Under the pieces are notes generated by a model that searched no databases, was not told the origin of the DNA, and saw only the letters and a program-made list of their open reading frames with translations. A program made the translations under genes and the position numbers. Shown piece after piece: positions 2,206 to 63,642 of a stretch of 64,000 bases of DNA (positions are counted from its first letter, which is position 1; every line of letters starts with the position of its first letter). Source of the stretch: Symbiodinium natans (taxonomy: Eukaryota; Sar; Dinophyceae; Suessiales; Symbiodiniaceae); contig CAJNDS010001391.1 in assembly GCA_905221605.1 (NCBI GenBank), forward strand, positions 134,501 through 198,500, given 5' to 3'.

Positions 2206-3882
2206 TCAGGCGCAGCCCGGGCCGCCCACGAAGCGCAGGCAAGCGGTCTGGGGCTGGCTGGTCAACAGGAGCACGGTGATGCCGTAGGACAGGGAAAGGG
2301 TTGGGATCAAGATGACCAGCGCGGTCATGCATCGGTTGCGGCCCTTTCCCTTCCTTGCTTGGGCATCCTGCTTCTGGCGAGGGATCAGAGGGAGCGCCAG
2401 GGCCCCCAGCATGGAGCAGAGGTAGGTGAGCGTGTAGGACAAGGCCACGGTGCGGCGGAAGCTCTCTTCGTCCCTTTGGTAGTTCTCGGGCTTGGACAGT
2501 GAGGGCTGGAACAAGGAGGAGACTTGGTTGGAGACAGCCACGGACAGCGGCTGACTCGAGTGCATCACCGTGCCGATGAGGCCGTATGTCAAGCCTTCCT
2601 GCCCTGGCTCCGAGAGTTCGATGACCATCAAGTTCAGGATCAAGGCCAAAGCCGTGGTGGGCACGGCCCCGACAATCTCCTCGCCCAAGTAGAAGTACTG
2701 GTCTCGGACAACATCGAAAATCGCCAAGAAAGTCGGCACGGAGTCGAAGACCGTCACCATCACAGTAGCCGTTAGAATGGCTCTCCGCCAACAGGACTGC
2801 AAGAAGTAGACTTTGTAGACCCAGGTGGCCACCATCATCACGAACATCCCGGCCATCTGAAACATCTGCTGCTGCAACACCCGGACTCCGGCCCACTGGC
2901 TTCGGACCATGGGCGCCGCGGTCGTACTTAACCCCGCGAAGAATTGGAAGACGAAGGCGAAGATCAGAACGCAGGACAAGCACTTGCTTTGGATCAAGTT
3001 CCAGGACGATTCCATGTGGGCGCGGAACGTGGGCCGCTCGACTTTCTTGGGCTCGTGGACACTCACCATGCAGATCAGTAGCAACAAGGCGGCGATGACG
3101 AAGCACACCATCATCAAGCCGTTGAAGGATATACCCCAGTCGAAGGTGCCCAAGTATTCCTTGCTGTTCATGAAGACCCCAATGACTGCAGAGGCCGCGA
3201 GCGAGCCCGCCATCGTGACCATTGTGAACTCAGCCTTCATCTTCCCGCGACACTCCAGAGGCTCGCGCTGCGAGTACTGCAACAGAAGGCCCTCCCCTGC
3301 CACGCAACCCAGCTGCACACCTGCAACAAGAACGAACATGGGGAAGACGTACCAGTTCTTCTCTGCATGGATGCTTGGATTGCAGGGTGGCGACAGCGTG
3401 TCGTAGCTTCCGTCAGGATGTTGGCAGTAGTACGGGGCGGGAAGTGACCACAAGCTCATGATCAAGAGCGCGCCAGCACAGATCAGCCAGGAGGCCAGGA
3501 AATATGGCTTCCTGTTGTACCCGCAAATGGGAAGGCAGTCGTTCATCACGCCAAAGGGAAGAAGCAGCACTTGTGGAAGCTTCATGAGCGCTGTGATCGA
3601 CATCATGACATTCGAGTCCAAGCCCATGTATCCGAGGAAGAAGCCATAGGCGACGCCCGTCACAGTGGCATTCAAGAAAGCCAGAAAGAAGCCACCCAAA
3701 GGCAATCCGACTGTGCACCATGTCCACAAAGAGAGCCTTTCGTCTCCATCCTCTGAAGATGTTGCCGACTCGTCGGCGGAACTGGAGTCCACACATACGG
3801 CCCCCTGCGCGACCTCTGCGTCGCCTTTCTCTGGGTGTGCGTGGGAGCCGAAGCGGCCAGAGAAGATGTAGTCCTCCAAGTC
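2206..3882 (-). CDS. BT1-family (folate-biopterin transporter type) major facilitator membrane protein, large exon
   Basis: A single open exon of about 557 codons ends at the stop at 2206-2208. The acidic, Ser-rich N-terminus (about residues 1-50) faces the first of roughly twelve hydrophobic segments (near 56-85, 98-111, 125-147, 178-201, 216-236, 252-273, 300-322, 336-360, 368-390, 402-421, 430-455, 475-500, then 518-540). Residues 114-127, DCLPICGYNRKPYF, are the loop after the second or third helix that is characteristic of BT1 proteins (D-x-x-P-[IL]-x-GY-[RN]-[RK]-[RK]-P-Y). Family members move folates, pterins or related solutes across membranes; the substrate here is unknown. There is no in-frame ATG before residue 85, and an in-frame TGA lies about 33 bases upstream of 3882, so the start must be in an upstream exon; GTGAG|GAC at 3882 is a plausible acceptor. 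This long intronless block contrasts with the finely split neighbouring genes. Confidence 0.85.
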   Translation of the reverse strand, partial: DLEDYIFSGRFGSHAHPEKGDAEVAQGAVCVDSSSADESATSSEDGDERLSLWTWCTVGLPLGGFFLAFLNATVTGVAYGFFLGYMGLDSNVMMSITALMKLPQVLLLPFGVMNDCLPICGYNRKPYFLASWLICAGALLIMSLWSLPAPYYCQHPDGSYDTLSPPCNPSIHAEKNWYVFPMFVLVAGVQLGCVAGEGLLLQYSQREPLECRGKMKAEFTMVTMAGSLAASAVIGVFMNSKEYLGTFDWGISFNGLMMVCFVIAALLLLICMVSVHEPKKVERPTFRAHMESSWNLIQSKCLSCVLIFAFVFQFFAGLSTTAAPMVRSQWAGVRVLQQQMFQMAGMFVMMVATWVYKVYFLQSCWRRAILTATVMVTVFDSVPTFLAIFDVVRDQYFYLGEEIVGAVPTTALALILNLMVIELSEPGQEGLTYGLIGTVMHSSQPLSVAVSNQVSSLFQPSLSKPENYQRDEESFRRTVALSYTLTYLCSMLGALALPLIPRQKQDAQARKGKGRNRCMTALVILIPTLSLSYGITVLLLTSQPQTACLRFVGGPGCA

Positions 3883-4160
3883 CTCACCGCCCAGAATGAA
3901 AACACATCTTCAAACTCAAGTCTTTCTGCTGAAAATGGCAAAACGCAAAACTTACAAAGAGAAAAAAGAAACGATAAACATTGGGGCGCTAGAGGCCGGG
4001 GACCGCGGAGGCTTCAGACCTATGGATTCTGGATGTAGTGGATTTCGGATCTCACGGATCTTCGACCTATCGCGGCTATCGCGGCACAGGCACGTTGAGG
4101 GCTCCGGCTTCCCAAGGACTCGTTTGCCGCGCAAATGCCGTCGACCTCACGGGCAGAGGC

Positions 4161-20425: not shown

Positions 20426-22902
20426 CAGAGACTGCCACAAGACGAACTACCTGACCACTGGTTGACACGTTTTCGCTCACCCCGGGCGTCCGCACCATGG
20501 CAGTGGCAGCAGAACAGTGCCTGCGCACCAGATGTGCATGCAAGTATGGCCAGCAGAACAAGCCTCTCAAGCTTGCCTTGCCTTCCTTCCCCCTCTCTTC
20601 TTCTTCTGCCGGGCTCTTCTTCTTCTTCTTCTTCTTCTTCTTCTTCTTCTTCTTCTTCTTCTTCTTCTTCTTCTTCTTCTTCTTCTTCTTCTTCTTCTTC
20701 TTCTTCTTCTTCTTCTTCTTCTTCTTCTTCTTCTTCTTCTTCTTCTTCTTCTTCTTCTTCTGCTGCTTCTGCTTCTTCTTCTTCTTCTGCAGGGCTTGAG
20801 GGCGCTCTCTCTCTCTCTCGCTCTGTGTCGCTCGCCCTCGCTCCTCCGTCCTCCGTTCATAGGTCTATAGGGCCTGGGACCAAGTGCCATGCCAGCAGAT
20901 CTGTGAGACATGAGACATCACACGAAACTCGAAAACTTGTTTTTGCACGTGGACTCTGACAGAATCCCCGATGTCAACCCGGCACGACTTTCAGGGGACC
21001 CGGCTTGAGCTCTCCAGAAGACAAACGAGAGTGTGAACAGAATAATGACCGTCTCTTCGTTTCTTCTCTGCCGTTGGGCCACATGTGCACGGGCCCGTAG
21101 CCCCGCAACGTCGGTACTTAGAATCCTGACCAGGCACGAGCATCTTTTGACACTTTATGCCACGGCTCTATTGCTTTACAGCATCCTTCCTGTTTGTCTC
21201 ATTGTTTCGGTCTCTCTCTCTCTCTCTCTCTGCACGCAAGGCCCCCTCCCGAAGGAGAGAGCCGCCCCAAGGGGCGCGCAATGTCCAAGGTCTGTTGCTG
21301 CCCATCTTGTTGGCAAGGTGAAAAGGCCGGAGGAGGGAAAAACATGCTCCCAAAGGGCACTGTTGGCTTGATCCCTGGGTTGCCTGACTTTGGTGGAGTG
21401 AAGAGGATGTCCGCCCTGAATTGGCCCTCCCCGGTTGAAATGAAGGAAAGCAGAGTCCTTCCCCCATCCAATAACCGAAAGCCCCCCAGTCCCCCATGAA
21501 CACCCATACCCCGCGTGGAGGGAGAAGGACATGTCTGACTTGGATGCCTATCTAGAATGGACTCACTATGTCCCCTTGCCACAGTTTGGTGGGTCGGGAA
21601 AGGAGAAGACTGTTTGTTCGGTAACGGTTGCCTAACACTGCACTCCCTGCTACAGGCTGGCAGCTCGGGAGCACTTAGCGAGTTGAGTGAACGTCCCCCT
21701 ACCCCAACAACCGAAAGTCCCCCACAATCACCTACCAGCACCCGGGACCCACGAGGGGAAGGGAACGTGAAAAGGTGGTTGCTGTCTCAGCTGTGCTTCT
21801 CGACGGTGATGTGGCTGGCTTTACACCCTCTTGCTCAGTTTCCTTGGGAGGCGATGGTATTGCACATGCTCTCCTTGATATAGCGCACTCCATGTTGGCC
21901 AGGCCTGTATCGAGGGACGATTGGTGTTTCACATGCCCCCTCTTGTTGACTTGTGGTACCCCACTGTGGTTCGAGAGCTTCTATTGGTGTCGTTGGTGTT
22001 GAAGACGGTGATGTGGCGGGCTGTACACCTTCTTGCTCAATCTCCATGGGAGGCGATGGTATTGCACATGATCTCCCCGATATAGCGCATTCCATGTTGG
22101 CCAGGTCTGTGTCGAGGGGCGATGGTGTTTCACATGCTCCCTCTTGTTGACTTGTAGTATCCCGCGGTGGCTCGAAAGCTTCGGGTGGGGTGGTCGGTGA
22201 CGGTCTCTCCCAAGAGGTGCCTTGTTCTTCGTACATCTCGTGGTTCGGCAGGAGGTTGTTGTCCCCGCCGGGTATCTCTCTGGATGCTTCTGGGGCCGAT
22301 GGTATTTCACATGGCCCGCCAGTCGTGGTCGCATCCCCGAGGGCTGTCTGCCGGGTTGTTGCCAGGACTGATCGCGTAGTGCCTGGCCCTCCAGCTGTTG
22401 TTGGGGCGCTCCTTGGTTGACCCCGCTGACTTGGTGGGCGTCGTGGCGGGTAGATACCTCGTGGCGTTCGTCCCCCCATTTCATCCAGTCGGTGTTGTGC
22501 CGAGGTGCTGGCATGTGCTCGGGATGTAGTCCCACAGCATCATCTGCGGTATGGGCCATGGCTTGGCGTGTGGATTCCCGCTCAAATGCGAAACAGGAGT
22601 CCAAGTAACAGATGCGCACGAAGTGAAAGCCTTGACAAACTGTCCACCATATGGCACGCGAAAAGTACTACACTGCGGTTGCTGTTGGAGTCTCACCCGG
22701 TTGTCCGCGATTAGGGAAGAAATTTCTAAGGTCCAGGCCCCGCTGACAAGGATTACAATTAGGGTTTGTAGGGGGCGGACAAGCGGCTTCGACTTGAAAG
22801 GAGCGGCGCGGATGGCTCAAGCCCGGTTCGGGGGGCGGGTTCCCTCCCCAGACTTGAGCCAAAATGGCTACGGTTTCGGTCTCTCTCTCTCTCTCTCTCC
22901 CT

Positions 22903-22968
<66 letters not shown>

Positions 22969-39500: not shown

Positions 39501-40044
39501 TTCTCTCTCACAAGACAAGGCGTCTCACAATAAGAAAAAACATCTCAGCATCGTCTCTCGGCCACCTCCCCGTTCAATCCGCTGCCAGCTCTCTCCCACT
39601 CGCGGCTCGCTCAGTACGTTCGTCGTAGCATGCACACGCGCTCGGCTGTTTCGCTGCAAAGGGGGGCAAGCGTTGACTTTGAAGGTATAGAAGCTAAGCA
39701 AGTTCGCTATTCTGGCTCTTTGGCGCATGCCGAGATCGATGCCTAAGCGAGGCTTCAGGCACCATCGAAGCTGACAACCTCGATCCCTGTGCTGTGGTCG
39801 TGGCACAGTCTACCCACCTTCTTGGCAGATATTTTTCACGGATGCTCTTACACAAGCTGCTGCTGCAGCAGACATACTTCGAATTGCATCAGGGCGGTTA
39901 GCCTTCTTGTTTTTGGGAGTGGAAGTGTGCCGAAGTTGCCTGCATGCCAAACTTTAATACGTTAACGTCTTGGCGCAGCAGCAAGTTTGCAGTGTGTGCG
40001 GGCTCCGGGACTGGATTCGAGGCGGCGTCCTCTGCGCCGAATTG

Positions 40045-40520
40045 CGCCGCTCTGCGCCGCTTTGCGCCGCACTGCGCTGAAATACGCCGGATGCGCTGCA
40101 CTGCGCTGCATTGCGCCGAATTGCGCTGAATGCGCCGAATTACGCCGGATGCACTGCACTGCGCTGCATTGCGCCGAATTGCGCTGAATGCGCCGAATTA
40201 CGCAATTTGCACTGCACTGCGCTGCATTGCGCCGAATTGCGCTGAATGCGCCGAATTGCGCTGAATCACGCCAAACGCGCTGCATTGCGCCGAATTGCGC
40301 TGCATTGCGCCGAATTGCGCTGCATTGCGCCGAATTGCCGCATTGCTCCGAATTGCGCTGCATTGCGCCGAATTGCGCTGAATGCGCCGAATTGCGCTGA
40401 ATGCGCCGATTTGCCCCGAATGCGCTGTGTTTCCTGGAGTGCGCCGCAATGCGCTGCATGCGCTGGACGGCGCCGAATTGCGCTGATTTGCGCTGAATTG
40501 TGCTGCTTTGCGCTGATTAA
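40045..40520. repeat. 10-bp based satellite (TGCGCCGAAT / TGCGCTGCAT) with about 58-bp higher-order units
   Basis: Alternating 10-bp subunits TGCGCCGAAT and TGCGCTGCAT/TGCGCTGAAT run for almost 500 bases. A longer unit recurs at about 40085, 40142 and 40200. Frames on both strands read as Cys/Ala-rich or Gln/Asn/Ser-rich peptide repeats; none is a credible gene. Confidence 0.9.
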
Positions 40521-42409: not shown

Positions 42410-43050
42410 ATCGGGTTTATCGGTCGGTGCGCAGCAGGTTTCTTGGCGCCGGGTGCGGGGTTTGTGGGGCCTGGCGGGTTTGTCGGTGCGCCACGGGTTT
42501 GTCGGGTTTTGTGGGTTTGTCGGTGCGCCATGGGTTTGTCGGGTTTAGTGAGTTTATCGGTGCGCCACGGGTTTGTCGGGTTTTGCGGGTTTATCGGTGC
42601 GCCACGGGTTTAGCGGGTTTATCGGTGTGCCACGAGTTTAGCGGGGAGCGGGTTTATCGGTGCGCCACGGGTTTAGCGGGTTTAGCGGGTTTATCGGGTT
42701 TAGCGGGTTTATCGGTGCGCCACGGGTTTAGCGGGTTTATCGGTGCGCCAGGGTTTTTTAGCGGGTCGGTGCGCCACGGGTTTAGCGGGTTTATCGGGTT
42801 TAGCGGGTTTATCGGTGCGCCACGGGTTTAGCGGGTTTATCGGTGCGCCACGGGTTTAGCGGGTTTAGCGGGTTTATCGGTGCGCCACGGGTTTAGCGGG
42901 TTTATCGGGTTTAGCGGGTTTATCGGTGCGCCATGGGTTTGGCGGGTTTATCGGTGCGCCACGGGTTTAGCGGGTTTAGCGGGTTTAGCGGGTTTAGCGG
43001 TGCGCCACGGGTTTAGCGGGTTTAGCGGGTTTATCGGTGCGCAGTCCCTG
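42410..43050. repeat. Telomere-like minisatellite: GGTGCGCCAC plus variable numbers of GGGTTTA(G/T)C
   Basis: The array alternates a 10-bp GGTGCGCCAC block with one to five 9-bp units GGGTTTAGC or GGGTTTATC. At least fifteen GGTGCGCCA blocks are present. GGGTTTA is the telomeric heptamer in another phase, extended by two bases. The Gly/Phe-rich plus-strand ORFs are artefacts. Confidence 0.9.
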
Positions 43051-45274
43051 TTTCCGCGCGCAATGCAAGCAAGTTTGCGTGGGCCCAGCAAGAACCCGTG
43101 ATGTCGATGCTGTTCACCCTGTGCTACGCAGGCTCGGATGTGACCCCCCCATTTCAGAAGCCATTCGAAAGACCCATCCCGCAGGGCAGCTGCGGATGGG
43201 AGTTGGGCGATCAGTTGCGATTCGCCAGGACATCACGCAGAAACGATCCAGGCTGCCAAGCACAGCCGCACGAAGAAACTAGGAGACTCCCCCAGGCCAT
43301 GGTTGCGTGAGCGATTACTGTGAAGAGAGCCAACTGCCAAGCCAGTTTTCGGCACCAACGGCACCAACAGCTTGTGGAGGGGGTCGGGGGGGGCGACCGT
43401 TTTGACACAATGTCCCCCTGCGCAACCCTACCCGTCTACGCTGCGTCCTATCCGGCACAAGAAGAATCCGCATGAATGCAAAGAAAACCTCACTTCCTGT
43501 GCTTGAGCGCGGCAAGCAGTCGGAAAAGCCTGAACAGGCTGTGTCCCAGCCACGCCAACCATGCTTTGCACGCCGGTGTAGCAAGTTGGAGGAACCTGAC
43601 GCACTTGCCCGCATGGAGGTCAGGATATCTGATTGATGAAACATGACACCTCGGTGAGACGCTTGAGACAGCTGCACTGAGGCGAAGCACCGCATACCAA
43701 GTGGTGCTGTGGGTTGGTGCTCTCGGCTTAGGTTGGAAAGGCGTTGCTTGGCTGGACAGTCGGGTCCGCTCTCCTGCAGCTCAGAAAGGGTGACACCTTC
43801 GCGCAAACGAGTGATCAGCCGGCTATGCCTGAATCCGCACAACCAGTGCCCCAAAGAGATCTTCCCGACAAATGCCGCGGTGAATTTTCAGGCGTGGGAA
43901 ACCTGAGTTTGCAAAAAAAACAGGCCCATGATAAGTTGCAAGCTTGCACGACAAACCAACTGGAAACAGCTGGAACACACATGACATGATGGACCTGAGA
44001 TTCAAAGTACCTTAGTACGACATCGACAGAAGGCCTGACACAACGGCACCGCATACGATATCCACGTTGACGGAGAGGACAGCATGGGCTGCGAAAACCT
44101 GTTCGTCCCTTCCTGTTACCCGGGGAAAGCTCGAGAGTTGGATTTCAAAGTTTTCTTGTCGTCCCTGGATCAAGACATGGGCTCATGTCAGCCTTTGCGG
44201 CCATGCCTCACCGACGTGTCTCAGACTCTTGCCACCAAGCAGCAGAGACAGTGGCACGGCGTCATCATCATGGCCATGCCCGTCTTCGGAAATGTCTTCT
44301 GTCGTGGTGTTCTCACTGCCATACCCTCCGCACTCACTGGCCGGGCAGGACCTTGCATAGTACGAAGCATGAGCACAAGCCGTGCTCTGATTCAAGGATT
44401 CGGCCAAGCTTCTTGACGGAACGAATCATGTGGAACCACTCTTGGAGAGACGGCGAGTTGTCGATGTCATCGGTACCCTAGCGGAGGAGGAGACTCCAAA
44501 GGGACCACTCCAAGCGACTTCAACCATCTACGTTTAATCCACCGTCCTCCTCGGCTGCTTGACTTTGCATGGCGTGGACCTCATCTGACAACTAGAAACA
44601 AGCAAAAAATCATGATTCACAGGGCCGCATAATGAAACGAGCGTATCGACGTTCTACAGGTGGCAGGGGGGCATGTAGCTGCAAATGCTACACTCTGTTA
44701 GTTGGAGCAACTTCCCCAGCTTCCTCTATGTCTTGACTCGAAAACCACCGTGGCTGTGGCGTGGCTTTCTTGTTTTGCGCTTGGGAGGGGGGCGTGCGGG
44801 GTGCCCCGGTTTGCAGTGGTTGCGTGGAATTGCATGCGAAGTAGTCTGTAGCAACATAGCAGAGTCAGCATCAGTAGTAGTAGTCGTCGTCGTCGTTGTT
44901 GTTCTGTCAAGGCCTCGTGTACTGTGCCACATGCACATGGTGAGAACACTTGGGTCCAAAACAGAAAAGAAACCTCCGCGTTGGAGACGCGGCCTAGGCC
45001 TAGGTAAGAATGTGGGATTCCAAGAATTCTGCGTCAACATCGAGCTTGACAGCCATCCAACTTTCGAGGGATGCTTTGTCGTTCAGCCAGGCAACACAGC
45101 AACTGCGAACCAATGTGCGTACCGTGCGATGGGGCTGTAATGGAAGCGTGCTTCAAAAATTTGCTGAGGGATTGAAAATCAGATCTGGCAGAGCCCAGCC
45201 GTCGATTGAGTTCAGACCCAATGTCCCCGGATCATTCTAAAGGACTTCCCAGACAAACCAAAGAAGACTTGCAT
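43051..45274. other. Interval with no recognised gene, possibly the 3' part of the LINE
   Basis: ORFs on both strands look non-coding or degenerate. A minus-strand frame at 43315-43854 and the sequence below 45275 could be remnants of the LINE's C-terminal region, but no motif confirms this. Confidence 0.35.
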
Positions 45275-46350
45275 TCAAAATGGATGAGCATTAGACTTCA
45301 GCACATTGAAAGATGCAGCGAATGGGCATTGTTTCGACATTGCGCCACGAGAAACAAAGCCCATTATCTCTGCCAGCTCGAGCATGGCAGTTGGCAGTCC
45401 ATGCAAAAAAGAAGCCCGAGACGCCGTAGAAGCGACAACCATGGTGTCGTCTGCATACACAAGTTACACAAGCACATCGGCCGGCAGGTCAGCTTTGGAG
45501 CATAGCAAGCACGAACGTAACGCGTCGGAAACGTCGAACAGCAACACGGTCATCATCACTGAGAATAAGAAGGGGAAGGGACAACGGGCATCCCTGAGAA
45601 ATCCCAAAATGTTGGCGACGGACAGAAGAATCTCGGCCACAATCGTGAACTTTGCTTTGTCTGTCCGGACTCTCGAGATTGTTGCGGCGCACCAAATCGG
45701 CAGAGAGCATGTGACAGCCGATCGCGGTCCGCGCTGTCGACCATTTTCACAAGAAAACTAGGCCGTCTTTGCGCGCTAACGCTTGCTCTGCAAAGCAGTG
45801 TGCCCTGGAAGCCTCCCTTGTCATAGATACTTCGCGCATTTGGGCCATCCAAGGAAAAAACAGTTTGTACGTCAGCCAGGCTTGCGCTCGCGCCGACGTT
45901 TGCAGCCTCAAGATTGCATTTAACAGCCGCAAGGCATCGTTTGTCTGCTTGGAAGGAAGAGGTGGATTGAAGTTTGACATACGGAAGTCTTTTGTCATCT
46001 GTTCCATGGACGAAGTCACAGGTTGAATCTCCCTGCAAAATTAGGATGCAGTTCCACTCACAGTTCAAGCTGATTGCCGCGGGGGTCTTTCCGCTGTGGC
46101 TTTACGCTCGCCCTCGCTCAAGATACGTTCGCAACCTTTCGGGGGGCAGATCGGTGTCAAAGAATTGGCACTGTCGTCTGTCGTGATCCAATCGCTCTTT
46201 TGGAATCTTTCAACCCCTGCCAAAGGCTCTTTGGAAAGGGCGATTGCGCGCGTCGTTTGGTTGTATCGACATCAGGCATCATTCCTGCCACGGCAAACTT
46301 TCTAACAAGTACTTGAGCGTCTTCTTGAGCCAACATGGCTTGAGCCAAAA
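45275..46350 (-). mobile_element. Degenerate LINE-type (non-LTR) reverse transcriptase with a 5' relict SL
   Basis: Reading the minus strand, three reverse-transcriptase motifs appear in order but in different frames: DSADRDRLSHALCRFG (near 45750-45700), the thumb-side hydrophobic block GISQGCPLS continuing PFLFSVM in the next frame (near 45600), and the catalytic YADDTMVVAST (near 45457). At least one frameshift and an in-frame TAA just before YADD show it is dead. The spacing and GxxQGxPLSP plus YADD combination are those of non-LTR retrotransposons. An ORF at the 5' end (46157-46336) starts with an ATG inside the relict SL. The 3' end and any endonuclease domain were not identified. Confidence 0.78.
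46324..46350 (-). other. Tandem relict spliced leader
   Basis: The minus strand reads TTTTGGCTCAAG (46339-46350) directly followed by CCATGTTGGCTCAAG (46324-46338). Both are 3' parts of the dinoflagellate SL, the second with one change (CCATTTTGG to CCATGTTGG). Tandem truncated SLs arise when a retroposed SL-bearing gene is trans-spliced and retroposed again. Confidence 0.88.
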
Positions 46351-46354
46351 CTTC

Positions 46355-46393
<39 letters not shown>
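46355..46393. repeat. (GCA)n / (TGC)n microsatellite, about 13 units
   Basis: A pure trinucleotide run abutting the 5' side (minus strand) of the tandem relict SL. Confidence 0.95.
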
Positions 46394-62111: not shown

Positions 62112-62935
62112 TAGAAAAGTTACTTTTCGAGAAAAGTGGCTTTTCGAGAAAAGTGGCTTTTCGAGAAAAGTGGCTTTTCGCGGACGCGGCGCGCACCAAC
62201 GCGGCAAGAAAAACTACTTTTCGCAAAAAGTTGCTTTTCGAGAAAAGTGGCTTTTCGCGGACACCGCGCGCTTCAACGCCGCGAGAAAAGTCACTTTTCG
62301 AGAAGAGTGGCTTTTCGAGAAAAGTGGCTTTTCGAGAAAAGTGGCTTTTCGCGGACACCGTGCGCTCCAACGCCGCGAGAAAAGTCACTTTTCGCAAAAA
62401 GCGGCTTTTCTAGAAAAGTGGCTTTTCGAGAGATGTGGCTTTTCGCGGACACGGTGCGCGCAACGTCGCGAGAAAAGTCACTTTTCGAGAAAAGTCACTT
62501 TTCGAGAAAAGTGGCTTTTCGAGAAAAGTGGCTTTTCGCGGACGCCGCGCGCGCCAACGCGGCGAGAAAAGTCACTTTTCGCAAAAAGTGGCTTTTCGAG
62601 AAAAGTGGCTTTTCGCGGACGCGGCGCGCACCAACGCGGCAAGAAAAGCCACTTTTCGCAAAAAGTGGCTTTTCGAGAAAAGTGGCTTTTCGAGAAAAGT
62701 GGCTTTTCGGGGACACGGCGCGCGCAACGACGCGAGAAAAGTCACTTTTCCGAAAAGTGGCTTTTCGAGAAAAGCGGCTTTTCGAGAAGAGTGGCTTTTC
62801 TGGGATACGGCGCGCGCAACCTCGCGAGAAAAGTCACTTTTCGCAAAAAAGTGGCTTTTCGCGAAAAGTGGCTTTTCGAGAAACGTGGCTTTTCGAGCAA
62901 AGTGGTTTTTTGAGACAAGTGGCTTTTGAAAGACG
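62112..62935. repeat. 17-bp hairpin satellite with 78/94-bp higher-order units
   Basis: The basic unit GAGAAAAGTGGCTTTTC is an inverted repeat (GAAAAG-TGG-CTTTTC), and neighbouring units pair again (CTTTTC-GA-GAAAAG). Groups of three or four units are separated by a GC-rich spacer of about 26 bases, CGCGGACRCSGCGCGC-like plus CAACGCSGCGA. Spacers begin near 62179, 62257, 62351, 62445, 62537, 62615, 62709 and 62801, giving steps of 78 or 92-94. Because 17 is not a multiple of three and the unit has no stop, several frames on both strands are open, producing KWLFEKSGFSRKVAFR-type repeat ORFs. Confidence 0.93.
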
Positions 62936-63163
62936 CTGTGCGCCCCCACACGGCGCCCACCATTGAAGCAACCAAGAGAACCTCTACGCCTCCCTTTTCC
63001 GCTTCTCTGAGCTATGGCACGGCAAGGCACCCACGGCGGCATTTATACCGGCCTTGATAATCATAGTAGAGCTGGGGGGGGATTCTGGAGTTCTAGTAGC
63101 GGGGTTCACAGCCTGACAGAGTCGCTGTCGAAGATTAAGAGCATTAAGCAAGCCCCGACGATG
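62936..63163. other. Spacer between hairpin satellite and telomeric repeats
   Basis: No gene, repeat or motif was recognised. Confidence 0.5.
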
Positions 63164-63268
63164 TTTAGGGTTTAGGGTTTAGGGTTTAGGGTTTAGGGTT
63201 TAGGGTTTAGGGTTTAGGGTTTAGGGTTTAGGGTTTAGGGTTTATAAGGGTTTAGGGTTTAGGGTTTC
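63164..63268 (+). repeat. Interstitial telomeric array (TTTAGGG)n
   Basis: About fourteen TTTAGGG units, eleven or so perfect, with a TTTATAAGGG variant at 63241-63250. TTTAGGG is the telomere repeat of plants and of dinoflagellates. Confidence 0.95.
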
Positions 63269-63344
63269 GAGTTGAGGGTCTGGAGCAAGCCCTCAGGACT
63301 AAGACCCAAGCTCGAAAGCCTCCCCCAAACCCCAAACCCGAAAG

Positions 63345-63642
63345 CCTAAACCCTAAACCCTAAACCCTAAACCGTGGTGCCCAGCAAGTAGCACCCCTAT
63401 TTCCCTTGTTGTCGTTGGGCTAGGATCCCTGAGTCCCCCTTTGAACACGAAGGGCAATTCTCTGTTTGTCCTGAGGCTGCTGGGCCAAGCCCTAAAACCC
63501 TAAACCCTAAACACTAAGCCCTAAACCCTAAACCCTAAACCCTACACCCTACACCCTAAACCCTAAACCCTACACCCTAAACCCTACATAAGCCCTACAC
63601 GCTATAACCATAAACCCTAAACCGTAAACCCTAAACCCTATA
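63345..63642 (-). repeat. Inverted interstitial telomeric array (CCCTAAA)n, two blocks
   Basis: Perfect CCCTAAA units at 63345-63373, then a degenerate block at 63489-63642 with CCCTACA, CCATAAA and CCGTAAA variants. The orientation is opposite to the 63164-63268 array. Confidence 0.93.

Follow-up and report, generated by a model that had tools for sequence, protein, structure and literature searches.

A tandem relict SL beside a dead LINE fragment in Symbiodinium natans, and SL sequences at the 5' ends of LINEs elsewhere in its genome

Features of the locus

The DNA described here (the window) is a stretch of 64,000 nucleotides from the dinoflagellate Symbiodinium natans (contig CAJNDS010001391.1, positions 134,501 to 198,500). 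On its minus strand, positions 46350-46324 read TTTTGGCTCAAG followed directly by CCATGTTGGCTCAAG, two truncated dinoflagellate spliced leaders (SLs), and farther downstream lies the remnant of a LINE-type reverse transcriptase (RT) on the same strand as the SL pair. Published work is cited by PMC number, from excerpts of the texts. The features are the following:

46355-46393, no strand assigned: (GCA)13, close upstream of the SL pair; its minus-strand reading is (CTG)n
46339-46350, minus strand: first relict SL (5', younger), 12 bases, TTTTGGCTCAAG
46324-46338, minus strand: second relict SL, CCATGTTGGCTCAAG (15 bases), cut off at the AG that follows SL position 7 and carrying a T-to-G change
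46312-46318, minus strand: GCTCAAG, 7 bases, a weak candidate for a third and older SL remnant
46157-46336, minus strand: 59-codon ORF from the ATG born in the SL, without Pfam match and not LINE-like
45004-45747, minus strand: remains of a LINE RT, interrupted by stops and frameshifts and extending from motif A to the thumb
44903-45003, minus strand: 3' part of the LINE fragment, ending where DNA similarity to the copies at C288 and C1889 ends (44903)

Elsewhere in the window, long minisatellite arrays were found at 40033-40516, 42458-43042 and 62113-62927, with nested periods including 10/20/58, 9/28/37/46 and 17/77/94 bases, and a 567-aa open frame at 2206-3909 (minus strand) matched the BT1 family (Pfam, E 7.2e-11). 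Comparison of the window with a phage collection gave no match.

The tandem relict SL

The back-to-back pair of truncated SLs noted in the preliminary description is real. The two copies meet at the known AG point, after SL position 7, the truncation that marks tandem relict SLs of retrocopies, and the 17-base SL core is matched at 46324-46340 with one mismatch. Relict SLs of dinoflagellate retrogenes were described by Slamovits and Keeling in 2008 (via PMC3229502, PMC7245778 and PMC12014239), and two rounds of trans-splicing and retroposition, as proposed for the window, is the published reading of exactly this junction in dinoflagellates (PMC3229502). A tandem pattern of 27 bases, with the variable base left open and at most one mismatch allowed, was searched in the 759-Mb assembly and gave 92 matches, or 73 distinct sites after merging. 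The same pattern read backward gave none, so the tandem is not a product of chance. A short remnant comparable to GCTCAAG also occurs 3' of the tandem SL at two other loci, C2435 and C1876.

Among the 59 mismatch-free tandem sites, the T-to-G change is present in two, the window and C2435:248811. The change in the window may reflect a variant SL RNA rather than a mutation, because one report from Polarella describes a variant SL that shares this CCATGTTGG, although it was later not recovered (PMC7245778).

Beside the window SL no telomeric repeat was found, (CTG)n standing there instead. This (CTG)n-SL junction is the sole one that the pattern found in the genome, and (CTG)n was rejected as a class of insertion target, with only one site genome-wide.

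A complete 21-base SL is also present at window positions 22853-22873 (minus strand), 3' of a (GA)n tract at 22880-22968 on that strand, with no LINE RT match nearby. SL relics often abut (GA)n tracts genome-wide, with 162 overlapping matches and none for the backward control; the spacing of the 22853-22873 SL is one base beyond the (GA)n-SL pattern, which places it outside that count. Such sites may be retrogenes inserted at microsatellites.

The ATG created within the SL

The T-to-G change does create an ATG, at 46336-46334 on the minus strand. It had been proposed that this ATG opens the first ORF of the RT element and that SL sequence can be recruited as coding sequence, and neither proposal held up. 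The ATG opens 59 codons, ending at 46157, in a frame differing from that of the first RT-aligned codon (45747). Coding recruitment finds no support, because a length of 59 codons is reached by 242 of the 979 minus-strand ATGs in the window (25%). The intact LINE at C2435 shares the T-to-G, but its ATG initiates an ORF of just 16 codons in a different frame from ORF1; the first Met of ORF1 is found 178 bases beyond the SL-born ATG. That the change turned the SL into the start codon of a LINE protein is therefore hardly credible: the ATG exists and opens 59 codons, but the ORF is of ordinary length, matches no Pfam family and lies in a region devoid of LINE homology, and the SL-born codon was rejected as a LINE start.

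The reverse transcriptase fragment and the gap upstream of it

The RT in the window is real but dead. A frameshift-tolerant profile comparison aligned window positions 45747-45004 with residues 801-1054 of the protein at C1236, from RT motif A to the thumb. Scored against the RT-thumb part (residues 651-1100) of a LINE ORF2 profile, window positions 45851-44906 reached 82.2. The reverse strand gave 24.5, and 60 shuffles gave 23.5 +/- 3.1 with a maximum of 33. In a control with the whole profile, however, the reverse strand scored 97.6, above the 82.2 of the forward strand, and this score was traced to profile residues 16-207, a poorly conserved, low-complexity N-terminal part. The profile sections, 651-1100 for the RT test and 205-800 for the gap test, were chosen after the reverse-strand result of 97.6. 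The Pfam scan of single window frames gave no RT match because the frame is broken.

The DNA relatives of the window RT, at C288, C1889 and C140, cover window positions 45647-44903 only and are broken in the parts read; the similarity to the first two stops at 44903, ahead of a trinucleotide run. The closest relatives with long open frames (C478, C1236, C1535 and C735) share 38-39% identity with the C1889 copy over the thumb, and C1236 shares 26% with the window over the same part. Membership of the window RT in the C2435 family was rejected, as the C2435 frames gave no match to the RT region of the window at E 0.01.

In the C1236 protein, the endonuclease lies at residues 205-445 and the RT at 718-967 (Pfam). 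The window copy therefore lacks the front of the LINE, and neither an AP-type endonuclease upstream of the window RT nor the RT fingers were found. The SL and the RT are separated by 576 bases (46323-45748). This gap scored 25.1 against LINE profile residues 205-800, the reverse strand scoring 26.3 and 6 of 60 shuffles reaching 25.1, and it has no relative in the genome and no family match in Pfam. No other copy of the 5' region of the window element or of the gap was found in the 759-Mb assembly. A WQGL-like match near the window SL was not significant (E 0.5-0.8).

The preliminary description had named related copies that extend upstream without SL sequence as the finding that would speak against its reading of the LINE. 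For the window copy this is largely what was observed: C1236, read short of its 5' end, has an endonuclease and a long coding sequence farther upstream. The window SL need not belong to the LINE, and there is a fair chance that the SL and the LINE fragment are merely neighbours.

LINEs headed by SLs

Elsewhere in the genome, LINEs bear SLs at their 5' ends in same-strand placement. The number of SLs varies, the copies read differ in their flanks, and there are junctions with telomere-type repeats. The intact LINE at C2435 has an ORF1 of 436 aa and an ORF2 of 1163 aa, both measured stop to stop (1096 aa of ORF2 within the stretch analysed), and carries endonuclease and RT in one open ORF2 (Exo_endo_phos 7.7e-10 and RVT_1 5.8e-30, Pfam). 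It is headed by a tandem SL with the same T-to-G as the window. Its 5' sequence occurs at two places in the genome, C2435 and C557, both SL-headed, with two SLs at the former and four at the latter; the two are 93% identical across 1.5 kb downstream of the SL, and no similarity was found over 1.5 kb upstream.

Five further copies (C2094, C2322, C1774, C1867 and C1803:525k) show 94-99% identity in 8 of their 10 pairs, the remaining two pairs having 83 and 89%, with alignments that run into the leaders. From CTTACG onward the five share one body, but each is preceded by a leader unrelated to the others; variable leaders are what would be expected of transcripts starting in the flank of the source copy. 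The SL is flush against (CCCTAAA)n in four of the five, two of which keep the full 21 bases, and no SL was seen on direct reading of C1867.

Differing SL numbers in related copies (two as against four) and a row of six SL units at C2075 would also be produced by slippage or tandem duplication of the 15-base unit rather than by repeated trans-splicing. This explanation is nevertheless unlikely, given that the unit begins at the AG point described for trans-splicing (PMC3229502) and that related copies differ in the leader between SL and LINE, a difference that slippage does not make.

The placement of SLs relative to RTs was compared over 242 placed RT loci, drawn from a search with the C2435 RT (98 rows, merged into 92 loci) and from the best 150 Pfam RT hits among 2439 first-look RT candidates. 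When tandem SLs and SLs beside telomere-type repeats are counted together, at least 24 of the 242 are preceded within 7 kb by an SL relic in the same orientation. The other three arrangements gave 3, 1 and 0 loci, and about 0.3 would be expected; in 19 of the 24 loci found, the SL lies 2.4-3.7 kb upstream of the RT. For tandem SLs alone, ten RT loci are preceded in this way, with two in the other three arrangements together and about 0.08 expected. At C1876, outside the 242, RT similarity was found about 3.3 kb downstream of the tandem SL.

The 28 best relatives of the C2435 RT, cut at 189 bits or more by our own choice, include at least 17 that are SL-headed, 15 recognised by pattern and two (C1774 and C1803:525k) by direct reading. 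The SL heads of C302, C391 and C857 were recognised by the nine bases TGGCTCAAG only, and at C391 and C857 the SL lies outside the usual distance from the RT. Ten other relatives have no same-strand upstream SL among the matches listed; at one of them, C2356, there is an upstream tandem SL, but in the opposite orientation.

A broader form of the suggestion in the preliminary description, in which LINEs of the S. natans genome would be SL-trans-spliced transcripts, is supported by DNA evidence from elsewhere in the genome. In the window copy itself, the gap shows no LINE homology. The tandem SL of the window may instead head a retrocopy of another (host) RNA, with the LINE fragment a chance neighbour, a possibility to be taken seriously though somewhat short of even. 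It agrees with the absence of LINE homology in the gap, with the unique (CTG)n-SL junction and with the great abundance of RT remnants (the 2439 first-look candidates). It also agrees with the finding that 63 of the 73 tandem SL sites are not followed by any of the 242 placed RT loci, whose Pfam part is the best 150 scored of 2439 candidates, and that, among the matches listed, none of 42 distinct (GA)n-SL sites has a placed RT within 7 kb downstream. The shared strand and short distance in the window, and the clear genome-wide excess of SLs upstream of RTs, weigh on the opposite side.

At C413:45074-45115 and C2444:191969-191995, tandem SLs were also observed, about 5.5 kb upstream of RT matches of equal score, C413 having three SLs beside a TA-rich tract. 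These two loci are possibly a second LINE type, present as an independent insertion or a duplicate.

Junctions with telomere-type repeats

The repeat TTTAGGG is the dinoflagellate telomere repeat (PMC11453091), and C2435 and related loci carry telomere-type repeats on the 5' side of the element. CCCTAAA adjoins the SL in five of the seven tandem-SL loci of the C2435-RT search (C2435, C557, C156, C1202 and C2136; five were read). At C1729, C1774:110k, C1822, C2107 and C968, the SL lies beside TTTAGGG, 2.4-2.6 kb upstream of RTs that are more distant from C2435. Two LINE groups can thus be told apart, one lying beside CCCTAAA and the other, more distant from C2435, beside TTTAGGG; a group is defined here by similarity in one search.

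Genome-wide, CCCTAAACCCTAAA occurs within 18 bases of TGGCTCAAG in 224 matches, overlapping ones counted, CCCTAAA stands beside a nearly full SL at 68 sites, and the opposite repeat strand, TTTAGGG, stands beside the SL in 139 matches. Backward patterns gave zero throughout, a weak control that says little about chance near real arrays, because the reversed pattern is not a telomere repeat. In 10 of the 17 SL-headed loci the repeat is not independent evidence, since these were found via the repeat or beside it.

SLs and telomere-type repeats might also have been joined otherwise than by LINE insertion, for example by repair of cDNA ends at telomere-type arrays. Most junction sites listed have no RT downstream among the 242 placed loci (RTs follow 8 of the 68 CCCTAAA sites and, among the matches listed, 8 of 85 CCCTAAACCCTAAA-TGGCTCAAG sites and 5 of 81 TTTAGGG sites), which speaks for such joining. 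Where an RT was placed, however, the SL tends to keep its same-strand position 2.4-3.7 kb upstream (the 19 of 24 loci above), and joining without LINEs is considered rather unlikely.

Telomere-type arrays in both strand senses (GTTTAGG x16, CCCTAAA x7 and x22) were also observed inside the contig at window positions 63163-63640.

A model of SL-tagged retroposition

In our preferred reading, the window probably holds an old, dead scar of an SL-tagged retrocopy, one instance of a process that acts across the genome and in which SL trans-splicing forms part of the cycle of certain LINE lineages. At the window, an RNA would have been trans-spliced, reverse-transcribed and inserted; the inserted copy would then have yielded a transcript that received a further SL at the AG within its existing one and was inserted anew. 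The LINE 3' fragment 576 bases downstream would belong to the same inserted RNA or be a neighbour.

For the LINEs elsewhere, transcription may start in the flank, and trans-splicing to an AG that precedes the LINE would give the RNA a capped 5' end, supplied by the SL RNA. This RNA would be copied to its 5' end by the RT of the LINE itself, the cDNA would land beside telomere-type repeats, and each round could add one SL. From the genomic copies we infer the RNA steps of this cycle, and likewise any attachment of the window SL to the LINE. It is likely that LINE RNA is trans-spliced, reverse-transcribed to the 5' end and inserted at telomere-type arrays.

A broader proposal, offered as tentative and open to considerable doubt, is that at least two dinoflagellate LINE clades need SL trans-splicing as a maturation step, which would free the LINE RNA from read-through and add a capped 5' end. 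TTTAGGG arrays would be their insertion sites, entered in opposite orientations as a parallel to SART and TRAS, and the retrogenes for which dinoflagellates are known would arise when this machinery acts on host SL-mRNAs.

Relation to known systems

The SL relics of dinoflagellate retrogenes show the truncated tandem seen here, with its junction at the AG that follows SL position 7, and the same model of repeated trans-splicing and re-insertion has been applied to them; the published relict SLs, as far as the excerpts go, concern genes in general, whereas here they were also found heading LINEs that encode an endonuclease-RT of their own. The SART and TRAS elements of the silkworm are likewise two LINE groups in telomere-type repeats in opposite orientations (PMC10088271), but in S. 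natans the repeat is TTTAGGG and an SL is present at the 5' end, and the likeness is known from the 5' side alone. The trypanosomatid L1Tc/ingi LINEs also live in a host that trans-splices its mRNAs, but they have an internal promoter (Pr77) and unspliced transcripts (PMC8190864). In Hydra, the SL was found on about 30% of transposon long reads (PMC12220107), which is RNA evidence, whereas the SL heads in S. natans are known from genomic DNA copies. A literature search conducted mostly outside subscription journals, and in excerpts, found no description of SL-headed or telomere-repeat LINEs in dinoflagellates.

Implications

The preliminary description was a good hint, and what it had found in the window is the scar of a relict SL with the remnant of a dead LINE next to it. 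Which retroelement makes the many SL-tagged retrogenes of dinoflagellates is described as unknown in PMC6050394, where an LTR element is the favoured candidate, and LINEs have already been implicated in retroposing viral RNA (PMC10235124). The presence of the SL at the 5' ends of the LINEs themselves points to LINE machinery handling trans-spliced RNA, and SL-headed LINEs are relevant to the search for the retroelement behind dinoflagellate retroposition. Insects, Giardia, Chlorella and others are already on record as carrying retroelements in telomere-type repeats (PMC10088271), and dinoflagellates would join them.
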